Assembly (NCBI GenBank): GCA_030747075.1
Contig: JASLLL010000050.1
Location: 1 to 10,674, forward strand
Direction of reading: 5' to 3'
DNA from: Gemmatimonadota bacterium
Lineage (GTDB): Bacteria; ARS69
Length of the DNA: 10,674 nt
Part shown: piece after piece, positions 648 through 10,674 of the stretch
Layout of the letters: every line of letters begins with the position of its first letter
Position numbering within the stretch: position 1 is the first letter of the stretch
Made by a program: the position numbers and the translations under genes
The notes under the pieces: generated by a model
What the model saw: the letters and a program-made list of their open reading frames with translations, nothing else
Databases searched by the model: none
What the model was told of the DNA's origin: nothing

Positions 648-3197
648 CTACCTCACGATGATGAGCTTGCGCGTCTGCTCCTTCCCGTGAGTCTGGAGCT
701 TGTAGAAGTAGACCCCCGCCGCCATGCGTGAAGTGTCGAGCGTGTACTCGTGGCGGCCCGCCGGGAGATCGTCGCTGATGATCGTCTTCACGCGACGCCC
801 CGCGACATCGAATACCGACAGGTCCACCTTGCCGTCACGCGGAACCGCAAACGCGATCGCGGTCTGTGCATTGGCCGGATTGGGGAAGTTCTGGTCCAGA
901 CCGAAGGCTTCGGCGGACGCGAGAATCTCATCCACATCGACGGGATCATCTCCCGTGATCTCGCGTTGCCAGATGCTCCGGCCGTAGCTGCCCGCGACCA
1001 CATAGAACCGGCCCACCGTTGACAGACTGTCGATGAAGGCAAGTTCGGTGACAATGTTGGCGCCGGGCATCCCATTGTTCCAGCGGTGCCAGAGTGTGCC
1101 TCCGTCCGTCGTGCGGAAGCAGCCCATCTCGGACGAAAGGTAGAGCTTGTTCGGGTCCGTCGGGTGAGCGATGACATCCGACGCCGGAACATTGGGGAGG
1201 TTCCCGGTGACATTGGCCCAGTTCTGGCCGCGGTCGGTCGTCTTGTAGACCTTTTCCCCCGGTGTCGACAGTCCGTTCATGACCGCGTAGGCCTCGTGGG
1301 AGCCGTATGGATGCGGAGCGACATGGCGCACCCGCTCTCCGGCGGGAAGTCCCGCGCTTCTCTCCACCCACGCCCCGTCGTACACCTGAAGGCGTTGCCC
1401 CGCTGTCGAGGAAGCCAGGCAGGCGTAGATGTTCGTCGAACCGCTCCACTTGGCGACGGAGATGTTGGACACATTTGCCGGGAAGGCCGCGGCGTTGTGC
1501 TTCGCCCAGTTGGAGCCCTCGTCGGTGGAGCGGTACACCCAGGTGTCGGAGTTGGTGTAGATCCACGGGGTTCCCGCGTAGCTGTCGTGGAGGATCATGG
1601 GCCACCACATCCCCGACGGGTCGATGCCCGTGTTGATGTGGGACCAGTTCACACCCCTATCGGTCGAGAAGAGTCTGCGGAACGACCAGTCGCCTCCGTA
1701 GACTCCGTTCGTCATCCAGATCTTGTCCGGGTTGGACGGGTGGACCGAGATCGCGCTTCCGTCCCCCCCGGAGGCGAAGGTCCAGCTGGATCCGCCGTCG
1801 GTCGTCATGGGGATGCCGTTGTCCTGTGTTCCGCCCCCGATGATCCGGGCGTCGCTCAGTGCGGCGTCGATGTGCACATACTGGGTGATCGGGAGGAAGT
1901 TGCTGGACGAAGACCAGGTGGCGCCCGCATCATCAGAGTAGATCCACCCGCCGTCGTTCCCTTCCCAGACCCGGGTGCCGTCGGAGTGCCAGCGAATGGC
2001 ATGATGGTCCACATGGACATCCGAGTCCGCGACCTCTGCCCAGTTCGTTCCTCCGTCGGTGGTTCTCCAGAGGGAGCCGCCGCCCGCCAACACAATGTTG
2101 TGGTCGGTGGGCGAAGCTCCGATGACATTGTTGTACCAGCCCTGGCCCCAGTGGTAGGCACTGGGTGGAGTCACATCCGACCAGGTGGAACCGCCGTTTG
2201 AGCTCCTGTAGACGCCGTGGGTGTTGTGGTCCGTCACATCGACGATGGCTGCGTAGACGACCTGCGAGGTCGTGCCGGACACGGAGACAGCGATCCTCCC
2301 CAGGTCCGTGGTGGGGAGCGTGCCGCTCCCATCGACGAGAAGCGTCCAGGATGCTCCGCTGTCGGTGGACTTGGCCACGCCGGCGCCATATCGGCCCATG
2401 TAGATGACATTCGACGCAGTCGGGCTGACGGAGATGTCCGAAACCCACCCGGTCAGGATCCGATTCCACGAACCCCCGTTGTCCGTCGAGCGGAAGTACC
2501 CGTGTCCGGTGCACGCGTGGATGATGTTCGTGTTCGTGGGGTCGTAGCGAATCCGGAAGAAGGAGGTTGGCTCGACGGGGAGAGCAACATGCGTCCAGCT
2601 GCCTCCGGCGTCGGTGGTTTCCCAGAGACCGGTTCCCGCGCGAATGAAGGGTTCCCCCGTGCCGACGAAGATGTGGTCGGAGTCCAGGGGATCCGTCGCA
2701 AACGAACCGATCGCCTGGCTGGTCAGGCCGTCCGTCATCGGGTACGGAATGAACCACAAGAACGACCAGAGGGCGCCACTCGCGGATGCGATGCGCGTTG
2801 CCGCACCGGAGGGTACTTCGATGTCGAGAACGCGCCCGGTGTACTTCGCGCCGGTGGAAGGGACATCCATTCCCCACGGCCCCAGGCAGTCCCACGAGTT
2901 GATGGCGCGCGGGCCTACCATGTCTTCGGCGGGGATCGTCTCGACTTCGTCCCAGATTCCGTCAAGTACTTCGCGCGGAAGGACATTGCCGTAGGGGTGG
3001 TGCCACTCGCTGAAGAACCAGCGCTCCTGATCCGGTCCCTTCGCGGGCTCCTCGGGCGGCATGGCAATGGGGGATTCCACGACTTCCGACTCCGCATCCG
3101 GGAGGGTGGTGTCCGCCGGACCCGGCACCAGGCCGGACGCGAAGAGAAGCAGGGCGGTCAGCAGTACCGAAGGAACCGCAAGTCGAAATATACGCAT
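648..3197 (-). CDS. Secreted Asp-box (BNR) beta-propeller protein with C-terminal sorting domain, paralogue 1
   Basis: This 849-residue protein is predicted to be exported. It starts with a signal peptide (R2 and R5, then a hydrophobic core at about 6-25). Residues 58-140 form an N-terminal segment with WHHPYG (65-70), LGPWG and GRVLDIEV, shared with the neighbouring paralogue. Eleven Asp-box motifs of the S/T-x-D-x-G-x-x-W type follow near 193, 237, 277, 331, 379, 421, 465, 511, 557, 653 and 696, as in sialidase-like and VPS10/sortilin-like propellers. Family landmarks GNDGGW (413-418) and GGGTQDNG (454-461) are present. Residues 765-849 are a type IX-style sorting domain (NFPNP, SVFDVAGRRV, AAGVYFYKL, basic end). 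No catalytic residues of a known hydrolase are evident, so binding or an unknown activity is possible. The ATG at 3197 has GGAG at 3208-3205, seven bases upstream. Two promoters precede it. The propeller call is firm; the substrate is unknown. Confidence 0.9.
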   Translation of the reverse strand: MRIFRLAVPSVLLTALLLFASGLVPGPADTTLPDAESEVVESPIAMPPEEPAKGPDQERWFFSEWHHPYGNVLPREVLDGIWDEVETIPAEDMVGPRAINSWDCLGPWGMDVPSTGAKYTGRVLDIEVPSGAATRIASASGALWSFLWFIPYPMTDGLTSQAIGSFATDPLDSDHIFVGTGEPFIRAGTGLWETTDAGGSWTHVALPVEPTSFFRIRYDPTNTNIIHACTGHGYFRSTDNGGSWNRILTGWVSDISVSPTASNVIYMGRYGAGVAKSTDSGASWTLLVDGSGTLPTTDLGRIAVSVSGTTSQVVYAAIVDVTDHNTHGVYRSSNGGSTWSDVTPPSAYHWGQGWYNNVIGASPTDHNIVLAGGGSLWRTTDGGTNWAEVADSDVHVDHHAIRWHSDGTRVWEGNDGGWIYSDDAGATWSSSSNFLPITQYVHIDAALSDARIIGGGTQDNGIPMTTDGGSSWTFASGGDGSAISVHPSNPDKIWMTNGVYGGDWSFRRLFSTDRGVNWSHINTGIDPSGMWWPMILHDSYAGTPWIYTNSDTWVYRSTDEGSNWAKHNAAAFPANVSNISVAKWSGSTNIYACLASSTAGQRLQVYDGAWVERSAGLPAGERVRHVAPHPYGSHEAYAVMNGLSTPGEKVYKTTDRGQNWANVTGNLPNVPASDVIAHPTDPNKLYLSSEMGCFRTTDGGTLWHRWNNGMPGANIVTELAFIDSLSTVGRFYVVAGSYGRSIWQREITGDDPVDVDEILASAEAFGLDQNFPNPANAQTAIAFAVPRDGKVDLSVFDVAGRRVKTIISDDLPAGRHEYTLDTSRMAAGVYFYKLQTHGKEQTRKLIIVR

Positions 3198-6210: not shown

Positions 6211-6762
6211 ATGACCCGGACAGACTCCGTTCCCGACCCGGCCCCGCCGAGTGACGCGGTCGCGAAGGTCGTGGTTCGGCTGAGTGTGAACGGCGCGATG
6301 CACGAGGTGGCCGTGCGTCCGGCGGATGTCCTGCTGGATACGCTTCGAGATGACCTGGGCCTGACCGGCACGACCCGGGGTTGCGACATGGGAGCGTGCG
6401 GGTGCTGCACGGTGCTCATTGACGGCGCACCGATGCTCGCCTGCCTTACGCTGACCGCATTGACCGAGGGGCGCGAAATCCTGACCATCGAAGGCGTGGC
6501 ACCGCCCGGAGTGGACCTCCACCCGCTCCAGAGCGCCCTTCACGAACATGGCGGCTCGCAGTGCGGGTACTGCACGCCGGGGTTCATCATGACGGCGCTG
6601 GCGTTTCTGAAAGAGCACCCGGATCCGACTACCGACGAAATCCGCCGCGCGATCTCCGGCAATATGTGCCGCTGTACCGGCTATGTGAAGATCATCGAAG
6701 CAATCGCGGCCGCCGCGAAGGACCTTTCGGATCCAGCACCCACCGGAGGAGAATCGTCGTGA
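6211..6762 (+). CDS. hcrC: 4-hydroxybenzoyl-CoA reductase-like small subunit, 2x[2Fe-2S] (gamma)
   Basis: This 183-residue protein is the electron-transfer subunit of a xanthine-dehydrogenase-family molybdenum enzyme. Residues 19-85 form a plant-type ferredoxin domain with C58, C63, C66 and C78 as ligands (C65 is an extra cysteine). Residues 100-170 form the all-helical second domain with CGYC (118-121) and CRC (153-155) holding the second [2Fe-2S] cluster. Its length suits the family (about 160 for the Thauera subunit, as I recall). The extra residues are a 19-residue polar, proline-rich N-terminus and a short C-terminal tail. There is no twin-arginine signal, so the enzyme is probably cytoplasmic. 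It is first in the operon and its TGA overlaps the GTG of the large-subunit gene. The family is certain. The specific assignment to 4-hydroxybenzoyl-CoA reductase rests on the partner FAD subunit. A related oxidoreductase acting on another substrate is the alternative. Confidence 0.9.
   Translation: MTRTDSVPDPAPPSDAVAKVVVRLSVNGAMHEVAVRPADVLLDTLRDDLGLTGTTRGCDMGACGCCTVLIDGAPMLACLTLTALTEGREILTIEGVAPPGVDLHPLQSALHEHGGSQCGYCTPGFIMTALAFLKEHPDPTTDEIRRAISGNMCRCTGYVKIIEAIAAAAKDLSDPAPTGGESS
6745..6751 (+). promoter_or_regulatory. Ribosome binding site deciding the GTG start of the large subunit
   Basis: GGAGGAG ends seven bases before GTG at 6759. This is the strongest Shine-Dalgarno sequence in the window. 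It fixes a GTG start that overlaps the previous stop by four bases (GTGA). Longer versions of the frame reach back to 6561 inside the small-subunit gene and have no such signal. Confidence 0.85.
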
Positions 6763-9104
6763 GTGGCGCCGGCGAACCCCCCCGCTCGCCGCACGGTGTG
6801 GGTCGGCGTGTTCCGCTGATTGACGGCGTGGACAAGGTCACGGGGAGAGCGGTCTATACGGATGACATTCGCCTCCCCGGGATGCTCGTCGGGAAGATCC
6901 TCCGGAGTCCCCACGCACACGCCCGCGTTGTGTCCATCGATGCCGCTTCCGCAGAGGCTCTCCCGGGGGTCCGCGCGGTGGTGACGGGCCGGGATGCGCC
7001 GGGGAAGTTCGGCGTTCTTCCGATCTCGGAGGACGAGACGGCGCTGGCCGTGGAGAAGGTCCGCTATGTTGGCGATGCGGTGGCTGCCGTGGCCGCGGAT
7101 TCGGAAGAGATCGCGTTGGCCGCGCTCGACGCTCTGCGCGTGGAGTACGAAGCGCTCCCGGTGTTCCTGAAGCCGAAGGACTCGCTCCAGGACATCCCGA
7201 CCGAACACAAGATCCACGCCGGGACGCGGCACGCTTCCAATCTTCACAAGGAAGTGCTTCAGGAGTTTGGTGATGTAGACACCGCCATGACGGAATCCGC
7301 GCATGTCGAGGGAGGGGAGTTCCGGTTTGTGGGAGTCACCCATGCGTTTACGGAACCGCATTGCGCGATTGCGCATCTGGACCCGACAGGGCGCCTGACC
7401 ATCTGGTCCGCCACGCAGGTGCCGCACTACCTGCATCGTGCGCTGTCGAAGGTCATGGAGATGCCGATGCACAGGATTCGCGTGGTGCGTCCCATGATCG
7501 GCGGCGGATTCGGCGGCAAGTCGGACCCGTTCCCGCATGAGATGATTGTCTCGTTGCTCTCGCGAAAGACGGGCCGCCCGGTGAAGATCCGCTTTGACCG
7601 GGAAGAGGTCTTCCTCACGAATCACGGCCGACACCCCACCACGACCACCATCTCCGCGGCCTGCGACACACAAGGCAAACTCACCGCGCTGGACCTCGAT
7701 GCGCTGATCGACGGAGGCGCATGGGGGAGTTTTGGCGTGGTGACCTCCTACTACAACGGGGTGCTGTCCGTCGGGCCTTATCGGTTCGACCACTTCCGCT
7801 ACCGAGGCCGTCGCGTCTTTACGAACAAGCCGCCCTGCGGTGCCATGCGCGGGCACGGGGCTGTGAACTCCCGCTTCGCATTCGAAGTACTGGTGGACCG
7901 GTTGGCGGAGAAGACGAAGAGGGACCCGGCGGAGTTCCGTCTCGCGAACCTGCTTCCCGAAAACACGACCACATTGAACGGCCTTCGCATCACATCGAAC
8001 GGCACCCGGGAGTGCATCGAGCGGGCGATGGAGGCTTCGGGCTGGAAGGAGAAGCATGGCCGCCTGCCGTCGGGCGAGGGGATCGGGATTGCGTGCGGAT
8101 TCTACATTTCCGGATCGGCGCACCGAATCCACCGGAACCGGCTTCCGCAGTCGACCGTGCATCTGAAGATCGACATGGACGGCGGGGTGACGGTCCACTC
8201 GATGGCGGCGGAGATCGGGCAGGGGTCGGACACGATGCTGGCGCAGTGCGTCGCGGAAGTGCTCGGGCTTCCCTTCGATCGGATTCGGGTGTACTGCCGG
8301 AACACGGATCATGCGCCGATCGACCTCGGCAGCTACAGTTCCCGCGTGACCTTCATGGCCGGGAACGCGGCCCGCGCCGCGGCGGAGAAGATCCGCGCGA
8401 AGCTGTGCGCCGCGGCCGCGCGACAGACGGGTTCCCCGGTGGAGGGCTTCGACACACGCGGCGAAGAGGTGGTCTACCTGCCGGACCCGGCCATTCGCGT
8501 GTCGTACGACGAGGCGCTCACCGAAGCGCTGGCGGACAATGGGGCGCTGATTGCGAAGGGAACCTACGGGGACGCACCTCCCATGGGCGGGGACTTCAAG
8601 GGAGCGGCGGCGGGGCTTTCGCCTTCGTACAGCTTTCAGGCATATGTGACGGAGGTGCGCGTGGACGAGGAGACCGGATTCGTGCGACCGGTTCATGTCT
8701 GGGCCGCGCACGACTGCGGGCGCGCGCTGAACCCGCTGGCCGTGGAGATGCAGATCGAGGGCTGTCTGCACATGGGCATGGGGCAGGCGCTGTCGGAGTC
8801 GTTCACGCTGCACAAGGGCGTTCCGCGTCACCCGAGCCTTCTCGACTACAAGATCCCCGGGCCGGTGGAAATGCCGGCGGTGGAGGTCATCATTGTGGAG
8901 TCGAAGGACCCGGAGGGACCCTTCGGCGCGAAGGAGGCGGGGGAGGGACCGCTCCTTCCGATTCTCCCCTCGATCGCGAACGCGGTGCACGATGCGGTGG
9001 GTGTCCGGTTGACGGAACTTCCCATGACGCCGGACCGCGTGCTGGCCGCGATGGACCGCAAGGCTCGCGCGCAGGCGGCCGTTCGGGAAGGGGCCGCGTC
9101 ATGA
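6759..9104 (+). CDS. hcrA: 4-hydroxybenzoyl-CoA reductase-like large subunit, molybdopterin-binding (alpha)
   Basis: This 781-residue protein is the catalytic subunit of a molybdenum hydroxylase-family enzyme. The N-terminal a/b-hammerhead domain spans about 15-130 (DGVDKVTGRAVYTDDI, SPHAHAR). The two molybdopterin-binding domains follow. Visible cofactor and active-site motifs are ATQ with Q220, GGGFGGK (248-254), CGAMRGHG (360-367, its Arg in the place of the bovine xanthine oxidase Arg912), EIGQGS (485-490), SYSSRVTFMAGNA (525-537) and GAKEAGEG, whose E729 fits the catalytic Glu position. PPCGAMRGHG, GSYSSRVTF and GPFGAKEA closely resemble the Thauera 4-hydroxybenzoyl-CoA reductase alpha subunit as I remember it, and the length (about 769 there) agrees. 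That enzyme reductively removes the 4-hydroxyl to give benzoyl-CoA. The start is GTG at 6759, and the stop overlaps the next gene by four bases. No XdhC-like maturation gene is in the window. Substrate preference cannot be proved from sequence. Confidence 0.88.
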   Translation: MSGAGEPPRSPHGVGRRVPLIDGVDKVTGRAVYTDDIRLPGMLVGKILRSPHAHARVVSIDAASAEALPGVRAVVTGRDAPGKFGVLPISEDETALAVEKVRYVGDAVAAVAADSEEIALAALDALRVEYEALPVFLKPKDSLQDIPTEHKIHAGTRHASNLHKEVLQEFGDVDTAMTESAHVEGGEFRFVGVTHAFTEPHCAIAHLDPTGRLTIWSATQVPHYLHRALSKVMEMPMHRIRVVRPMIGGGFGGKSDPFPHEMIVSLLSRKTGRPVKIRFDREEVFLTNHGRHPTTTTISAACDTQGKLTALDLDALIDGGAWGSFGVVTSYYNGVLSVGPYRFDHFRYRGRRVFTNKPPCGAMRGHGAVNSRFAFEVLVDRLAEKTKRDPAEFRLANLLPENTTTLNGLRITSNGTRECIERAMEASGWKEKHGRLPSGEGIGIACGFYISGSAHRIHRNRLPQSTVHLKIDMDGGVTVHSMAAEIGQGSDTMLAQCVAEVLGLPFDRIRVYCRNTDHAPIDLGSYSSRVTFMAGNAARAAAEKIRAKLCAAAARQTGSPVEGFDTRGEEVVYLPDPAIRVSYDEALTEALADNGALIAKGTYGDAPPMGGDFKGAAAGLSPSYSFQAYVTEVRVDEETGFVRPVHVWAAHDCGRALNPLAVEMQIEGCLHMGMGQALSESFTLHKGVPRHPSLLDYKIPGPVEMPAVEVIIVESKDPEGPFGAKEAGEGPLLPILPSIANAVHDAVGVRLTELPMTPDRVLAAMDRKARAQAAVREGAAS

Positions 9105-10072
9105 TTCTTCCCGCGTTCCGGCTTCACCGGCCCGCCACCGTGGACGAAGCCGTCCGGCTTGCGCACGACCTCGGGCCGGGCGCGGACTTCCTCGGCGGCG
9201 GAACGGATCTCCTGCAGAACTACAAGAACCGGCTGAACGCGAAACCACATGTCATTGCCCTCGACGCCGTGGAGGAACTTCGCGGAGTTTGTGGCGGACG
9301 GATCGGCGCCATGGAGCGGCTTTCGTCGCTGGAGCGGGATCCGGGTCTGCGGCGCAGCGTTCCCGCGTTGGCGGAGGCGGCGGCGAAGGTGGCGTCGCCC
9401 GTCATTCGCCATGCGGCCACGATCGGAGGAAACCTCCTCGCGGATCACCGCTGCTTCTGGTTCAACCAGACGCTCGAGTGGCGGCGCGCGGGAACTCCCT
9501 GCATGAAGGCCGAGGGCGACGAGTGCCTCGTGGTTCCGGGAACGGAGACCTGCTACGCGGCCTACTCCGGGGATCTGGCGCCGCTACTGATGGTGCTCGG
9601 CGCGTCCCTGGAAATCGCTTCCGCGTCCGGGCGGAGGACCGTACCGCTGTCGGACTTCTTCCAGGGTGACGGGATCTCGGGGAATGTCCTTCGGACGGGT
9701 GAACTCCTGACGGCGGTTCTTATCCCGGAGGAGGCCGCGGGCCTTCGTGCGGGATACCGCAAGCTCCGTCCGAGAGAGGCCATGGATTACCCCGAGATGG
9801 GCGTGGCGGCCGCCGTTCGCTTCGGGAGCCACGGGGCGCTCCGCGAGTTTCGCGTGGCGACGACCGCGCTCGATGTGGTGCCGCAGTTCGTGGACTACTC
9901 CGCCGAAACCAAGGGTCGCCCGCTCGCGGAAGTTCTGGACGATGTCGCCGGGAAAGTGCAGGCGGGAGCGAATCCGCGTCGCAATACCACGATGCCGGTG
10001 GCGTACCGGAAGCGGATGGCCGGGGTCTACCTTCGCAGGCTGCTGGAAGACCTGGCGCGGGGGTCGGTATGA
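9101..10072 (+). CDS. hcrB: 4-hydroxybenzoyl-CoA reductase-like FAD subunit with extra [4Fe-4S] loop (beta)
   Basis: This 323-residue protein (about 324 in Thauera, from memory) is the flavin subunit. FAD-binding motifs are GGGTDLL (32-38) and TIGGNLLAD (107-115). From about 220 to the end is the usual C-terminal domain of CO dehydrogenase-type flavoproteins. Unlike ordinary xanthine dehydrogenase FAD subunits, it has an insertion with C118, C134, C142 and C151. The spacings of 16, 8 and 9 equal those of the four ligands of the additional [4Fe-4S] cluster in 4-hydroxybenzoyl-CoA reductase (122, 138, 146 and 155 as I recall), with a constant offset of four. That cluster is thought to carry low-potential electrons from ferredoxin to FAD for the reductive reaction. 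The ATG lies in ATGA, overlapping the large-subunit stop, with an AAGGGG-type site seven bases upstream. The gene order small-large-FAD matches hcrCAB. I consider the subfamily call strong. Confidence 0.88.
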   Translation: MILPAFRLHRPATVDEAVRLAHDLGPGADFLGGGTDLLQNYKNRLNAKPHVIALDAVEELRGVCGGRIGAMERLSSLERDPGLRRSVPALAEAAAKVASPVIRHAATIGGNLLADHRCFWFNQTLEWRRAGTPCMKAEGDECLVVPGTETCYAAYSGDLAPLLMVLGASLEIASASGRRTVPLSDFFQGDGISGNVLRTGELLTAVLIPEEAAGLRAGYRKLRPREAMDYPEMGVAAAVRFGSHGALREFRVATTALDVVPQFVDYSAETKGRPLAEVLDDVAGKVQAGANPRRNTTMPVAYRKRMAGVYLRRLLEDLARGSV

Positions 10073-10674
10073 GCCGCGAGCGCGTCCTCCGGGCTGCCTG
10101 TTGTCTGATGCTGCTCGCCTTCGCGTCGTGCGGGAAGTTAAAGAGCGATCATGTCGCCGTGATCGGCAGCGAGGCGCTGACCGTGGCCGATCTTCGTCTC
10201 GTCTACGCGAATCTCGCCCCTTCCAACAAGCCGAGTCTTCGAACGCGCGCGGATCGCCTCGACTTCCTGAACCGCACCATCGATCGAATGCTGCTCACGC
10301 AGTACGCGCGAGAGATGGTTCAGGAAGGGAACCGGGAGACGGAGGAGTTCCTCTCCCAGGGAGAAGACGAAGTCCTCGTCCGACGGCTGCGTGTGCTGGC
10401 TGGCGGAGAAGGGGAGCCGGACAGCGGGTCCGTGCGCGCATCTCTGGCGGCGCAGGGCATTCATCACCCCACGGAAGAGGAATTCGCGGTCCGGGCGGGA
10501 GAGATGCGCGGCCAGATGAAAGCGCGCGCGCTGGATTCGCTTCGGGGCGACCTCTGGGAGAGCGGGGTTGCCGGGATCGACGATGCGGGGGTGAAGCTGG
10601 TCATCGAGCGGACTCATGAAGGGCTCGTCAGCGGCCGGTTTGCGGAACAGGATCCAGGGTGGGGCCTGCCGGTT
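10069..10674 (+). CDS. Lipoprotein with SurA/PpiC-type N-terminal chaperone region (3' truncated)
   Basis: The frame stays open for 202 residues to the window end. A short basic N-terminus (R3, R5, R8) and hydrophobic residues 9-19 lead to a lipobox-like LAFASC with C21 as the probable lipidated cysteine. Phe at -3 is less usual than Leu. G22 and K23 follow, with no inner-membrane Asp signal. Residues 28-110 resemble the helical N-terminal region of SurA/PrsA-type periplasmic folding factors: a VAVIGSEALTVADLRLVY start, then LDFLNRTIDRMLLTQYARE and an acidic helical stretch. No parvulin isomerase domain is seen before the edge; it may lie further on or be absent. The ATG overlaps the FAD-subunit stop (ATGA), so translation is coupled, although a cytoplasmic enzyme and an envelope lipoprotein are an odd pair. 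It could instead head a separate envelope gene set that continues downstream. Confidence 0.72.
   Translation, partial: MSRERVLRAACCLMLLAFASCGKLKSDHVAVIGSEALTVADLRLVYANLAPSNKPSLRTRADRLDFLNRTIDRMLLTQYAREMVQEGNRETEEFLSQGEDEVLVRRLRVLAGGEGEPDSGSVRASLAAQGIHHPTEEEFAVRAGEMRGQMKARALDSLRGDLWESGVAGIDDAGVKLVIERTHEGLVSGRFAEQDPGWGLPV

Follow-up and report, generated by a model that had tools for sequence, protein, structure and literature searches.

The closest described relatives of the locus reported here belong to the xanthine oxidase family. 4-Hydroxybenzoyl-CoA reductase of Thauera aromatica (HCR, 4-HBCR; HcrABC, PDB 1RM6/1SB3) is composed of a Mo-binding large subunit (HcrA), an FAD subunit (HcrB) and a small subunit with two [2Fe-2S] clusters (HcrC). 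E. coli PaoABC (5G5G) is a heterotrimer of the same family and also carries a four-cysteine loop in its FAD subunit; enzymes of the XdhABC/CoxLMS type have the same fold and subunit plan. Reductive removal of a phenolic hydroxyl by a family member, Ucdh of Enterocloster bolteae, is described in PMC12771579. In Marine Group II (MGII) archaea, xanthine dehydrogenase was the published reading of putative xdhC and yagS genes (PMC9723583); these may be other genes than the loci treated below.

Gene trio and subunit assignment

The window, i.e. the whole stretch of DNA that was analysed (10,674 nucleotides), is an entire contig (C50) of a 2.67 Mb genome (61 contigs, completeness rated at 100%). Three overlapping + strand genes within 6211-10072 encode small, large and FAD subunits side by side, as in HCR; the order small-large-FAD corresponds to hcrCAB of Thauera. 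Small subunit (6211..6762; HcrC-like, 183 aa; Pfam Fer2_2 and Fer2): cysteines counted from the sequence gave two [2Fe-2S] motifs, C58/C63/C66/C78 (6382-6444) and C118/C121/C153/C155 (6562-6675). Large Mo-binding subunit (6759..9104; HcrA-like by 1rm6_A match, TIGR03194 and tree; 781 aa): the GTG start at 6759 overlaps the small-subunit stop in a GTGA; on alignment, Tyr332 (7752..7754) falls on HcrA Tyr326, to which a functional role is presumably to be ascribed, and Glu729 (8943..8945, within PFGAKEAGEG) on HcrA Glu726, where enzymes of the xanthine oxidase family have their catalytic Glu. FAD subunit (9101..10072; HcrB-like, 323 aa; FAD_binding_5 and CO_deh_flav_C): the ATG at 9101 overlaps the end of the large subunit in an ATGA, and the stop codon is at 10070-10072.

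Other reading frames were noted in the window. A + strand ORF (10069-10674) begins in the ATGA overlap with the FAD-subunit stop, has a lipoprotein-like N-terminus and reaches the contig end; a Pfam search with it gave no match. On the − strand, two big proteins of similar make-up are encoded at 648-3197 and 3532-about 6042, the latter with a Sortilin-Vps10 match and a weak match to a Por secretion-tail domain.

Four-cysteine loop of the FAD subunit

The FAD subunit contains five cysteines (C64, C118, C134, C142 and C151), the last four forming the loop that the original prediction had placed at 9452-9553 with spacing 16/8/9; residues and codons (C118 9452-9454, C134 9500-9502, C142 9524-9526, C151 9551-9553; + strand) were counted and agreed exactly. 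On alignment to 1RM6_B the loop cysteines paired one to one with C122/C138/C146/C155 of Thauera HcrB (printed chain positions), the equal spacing being as predicted, and both of the flanking motifs named there, WFNQ-x-x-EW and YSGDLAP-x-LMVLGA, were found. Alignment, spacing and conservation mark the four cysteines as predicted [4Fe-4S] ligands on which a cluster would assemble. Invariant in all 41 related FAD subunits (bacteria and archaea) were R117, C118, N122, Q123, W127, R128, C134, K136, C142, C151, A153 and D158; since the four cysteines and the surrounding residues are retained over this set, the loop is not a product of chance. The model of the FAD subunit had a mean pLDDT of 87.8, but only about 50-67 within the loop.

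Two broader statements of the prediction had to be narrowed. An exact match of the loop to HCR stands as to spacing and register; the 16/8/9 pattern is common to several clades and not peculiar to HcrB. Lack of the loop in ordinary xanthine dehydrogenase-family FAD subunits was confirmed in E. coli XdhB and in the genome's second FAD subunit, but not in PaoB (10/9/19) or 5Y6Q_B (12/9/19), which both bear one; in CoxM (1FFU_C) the loop is apparently absent, the sequence being incomplete at that spot. Among the FAD subunits compared, the spacing was mostly 16/8/9, 16/11/10 in MGII archaea, 16/8/19 in one Planctomycetota sequence and about 10/8/18 in others. Judged by sequence, the loop marks HcrB-type FAD subunits, a group broader than 4-HBCR, and loops of another type occur in aldehyde oxidases. 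By itself it is not diagnostic of reduction, and it does not settle the reaction. Its spacing does separate HcrB-type from PaoB-type FAD subunits and is useful in annotation.

Relationship to Thauera HCR and phylogeny

The best PDB matches were 1rm6_B for the FAD subunit (E 1.7e-53; next 5.7e-24) and 1rm6_A for the large subunit (E 2.2e-198; next 1.5e-85); the closest solved relatives of both are the subunits of Thauera HCR and not those of a loop-bearing enzyme of other reaction. Identity of the large subunit was 44.8% to HcrA and 29% to PaoC, that of the FAD subunit to HcrB 38%. The modelled FAD subunit is predicted to fold like HcrB, with 1rm6_B as best match (Foldseek E 8.4e-31; VIA Z 40.2, 316 residues) and lower VIA Z for CODH medium chains (34.3), 5Y6Q_B (33.0) and PaoB (30.9). 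All three NCBIfam HCR models matched the trio over full length, every subunit scoring under its equivalog cut-off: small, TIGR03193, 186.5 bits (cut-off 257.8), slightly below the 190.9 bits obtained with glyceraldehyde DH gamma; large, TIGR03194, 868.5 bits (994.55); FAD, TIGR03195, 264.2 bits (404.55).

In the large-subunit tree, HcrA and the window protein lie within a 37-sequence clade (support 100/100), with PaoC, XdhA, CoxL and Qor outside. This Hcr clade splits into three parts (each 100/100): (1) Thauera HcrA and two Acidobacteriota; (2) three sequences (G065, G086, G088) with Gln at the position of HcrA Glu726; (3) 31 sequences, namely the window protein, its family, KSB1, Planctomycetota, Thermoplasmata and MGII archaea. 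The window large subunit is thereby placed beside, and not among, characterised HcrA, its clade being sister to that of Thauera HcrA and Acidobacteriota. In the second part the motif reads PFGAKE[VA]GQG, in enzymes that bear the FAD loop (L157, L160 and L158 of G065, G086 and G088, respectively). The motifs GAKE-A-x-EG and PPCGAMRGHG and the residues at the Tyr326 and Glu726 positions are common to the window protein and HcrA (alignment). The FAD-subunit tree, built with loop columns excluded, had the same outline; PaoB and 5Y6Q formed a separate clade (100/98) with the window FAD subunit outside it. Plasmids searched for Thauera-like HCR gave as best matches only sequences about 36% identical to HcrA.

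Benzoyl-CoA pathway genes and their distribution

At the end of contig C38 of the same genome, genes for Had (483.8 bits), Oah (546.7 bits), both above cut-off, and Dch (281 bits, slightly below the cut-off of 292.5) stand in a row. Contig C40 carries a four-subunit divergent Bcr-like reductase with a TetR-like gene; it is 65-78% identical to the one of a KSB1 genome (L123) that adjoins had-oah-dch, and its B subunit scored 204 bits vs the BcrB cut-off of 487. These genes are on other contigs than the trio, which is not beside aromatic-pathway genes; its only neighbours kept across phyla are XdhC-like and MobA-like maturation genes (named by eye). The MGII relatives and the XdhC/MobA-only neighbourhood had at first suggested a trio working without an aromatic pathway; for this genome that idea was abandoned once Oah, Had and Dch had turned up. 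Of the four AMP-binding proteins that the genome encodes, none was recognised as a dedicated benzoate-CoA ligase. A search for MocA (TIGR03310) gave no genome over cut-off and was uninformative; ferredoxin-dependent 2-oxoacid oxidoreductases were present in all genomes tested, MGII included, and therefore do not discriminate. A second xanthine-oxidase-family enzyme of this genome, without the loop, is encoded beside a long-chain acyl-CoA ligase-like gene (L001/L178; G000:C4, about 106-116 kb).

Oah over cut-off was found in 6 of the 8 genomes with a close large subunit (at least 770 bits, a line set after the scores were seen) vs 4 of the 137 others (145 genomes; Fisher p 5e-7). Five of these eight belong to one family; counted per family, the figures are 3/4 vs 4/137 (p 3e-4). 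Behind the related loci stand 50 genomes, with Oah over cut-off in 8 of the 12 bacterial (two Acidobacteriota included) and in 0 of the 38 archaeal ones. Canonical BcrB over cut-off was present in two family members (G003 and G004). Two Thermoplasmata loci (L173 in G149, L174 in G168) have divergent genes for Oah, a Bcr-like reductase, Dch and Had next to one another; the one Thermoplasmata genome searched for BcrB gave 334 bits, under cut-off. Tryptophan 2,3-dioxygenase-like, kynureninase-like and benzoate-CoA-ligase-family genes were seen together by eye at L152 (G004:C707), a set that suggests, from sequence, a 2-aminobenzoyl-CoA route. The benzoate-CoA ligase match of G004 was set aside as evidence; because it adjoins the first two of these genes, this protein is probably a 2-aminobenzoate-CoA ligase.

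The MGII/Poseidoniales loci (L048-L118) encode an Hcr-clade trio with the variant loop 16/11/10. The MGII genomes behind related loci had no Oah over cut-off, BcrB was not found in the two searched for it, and a literature search for a link of marine MGII to 4-HBCR returned none. It is conceivable, if rather unlikely, that the clade of the window, Planctomycetota, KSB1, Thermoplasmata and MGII is a distinct functional group of aroyl-CoA or other phenol reductases with a substrate other than 4-hydroxybenzoyl-CoA, used by surface-ocean MGII outside any benzoyl-CoA pathway. The role of the same enzyme type in Marine Group II archaea is the question raised by these loci.

Discussion

The trio is probably an HCR-type enzyme that most likely converts 4-hydroxybenzoyl-CoA to benzoyl-CoA and feeds a reductive dearomatisation route. 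The original prediction of a reductive enzyme rather than a hydroxylating one is upheld as the best reading, drawn not from the loop alone but from the closest solved relatives, tree, active-site motifs, dearomatisation genes and co-occurrence with oah. For electron flow, cofactor type, reaction and substrate we infer the following course: low-potential electrons, probably ferredoxin-derived, would enter at a [4Fe-4S] cluster on C118/C134/C142/C151 and pass via FAD and the two [2Fe-2S] clusters to the Mo cofactor, where an aroyl-CoA (most likely 4-hydroxybenzoyl-CoA) would lose its ring hydroxyl; the benzoyl-CoA formed would then be taken up by the divergent Bcr-type reductase, followed by Dch, Had and Oah, encoded elsewhere in the genome. 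The bacterium, an uncultured one, probably helps to degrade phenolic compounds, since an HCR-related enzyme occurs together with genes for oxygen-free breaking of the aromatic ring.

It is considered unlikely that the enzyme dehydroxylates reductively by the same mechanism but acts on another substrate, be it a different hydroxyaroyl-CoA or another activated phenol. Such a substrate would be consistent with the sister-clade position of the large subunit, the equivalog scores of all subunits and the divergence of the Bcr-like reductase, as well as with urolithin C dehydroxylase, which is 32.7% identical to 4-HBCR and reduces another phenol (PMC12771579); the active-site motifs, the same as in HcrA, and the nearness of Oah, Had and Dch to known enzymes speak for 4-hydroxybenzoyl-CoA instead. 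There is more certainty about the direction of the reaction than about its exact substrate, since Ucdh is an example of a related enzyme reducing a different phenol. An oxidative enzyme, acting on aldehydes or purines, is improbable: four-cysteine loops do occur in PaoB and 5Y6Q_B, from annotated aldehyde oxidases, MGII members of the clade have no Oah over cut-off, and published MGII genes were taken for xanthine dehydrogenase (PMC9723583), but the PaoB-type loops differ in spacing and belong to the separate FAD clade, large-subunit identity is 29% with PaoC vs 45% with HcrA, PaoC has KG at the position of KE in the window enzyme, and benzoyl-CoA pathway genes are present in the genome. That the loop is a structural relic devoid of a cluster, a reading to which the low model confidence there would lend itself, is highly improbable in view of four cysteines and nearby residues invariant in 41 bacterial and archaeal sequences.

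The enzyme type is already known; the present branch of it is new and uncharacterised. With this branch, a broad clade drawn from uncultured bacteria and archaea, the sequence range of 4-HBCR-type enzymes is widened; in several phyla its members are linked to dearomatisation genes, of which one set includes a divergent benzoyl-CoA reductase.

Comparison with known systems

Unlike the window enzyme, XdhABC/CoxLMS-type enzymes have large subunits outside the Hcr clade, with XdhB lacking the loop and CoxM apparently so. PaoABC differs in its loop (10/9/19), in an FAD subunit of another clade, in a large subunit 29% identical to that of the window, in the gene order small-FAD-large and in the PaoD chaperone. 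Ucdh, 32.7% identical to 4-HBCR, resembles the trio in family and in the reductive dehydroxylation proposed for the trio; the passages of PMC12771579 consulted name no [4Fe-4S] cluster in it. Thauera HcrABC differs in that the window trio forms a separate sister clade (100/100) and does not adjoin aromatic-pathway genes; it agrees with the trio in its three subunits, in loop cysteines in register at 16/8/9, in the large-subunit GAKE-A-x-EG, Tyr326 and PPCGAMRGHG, and in how the FAD subunit is predicted to fold (Z 40.2 over 316 residues).
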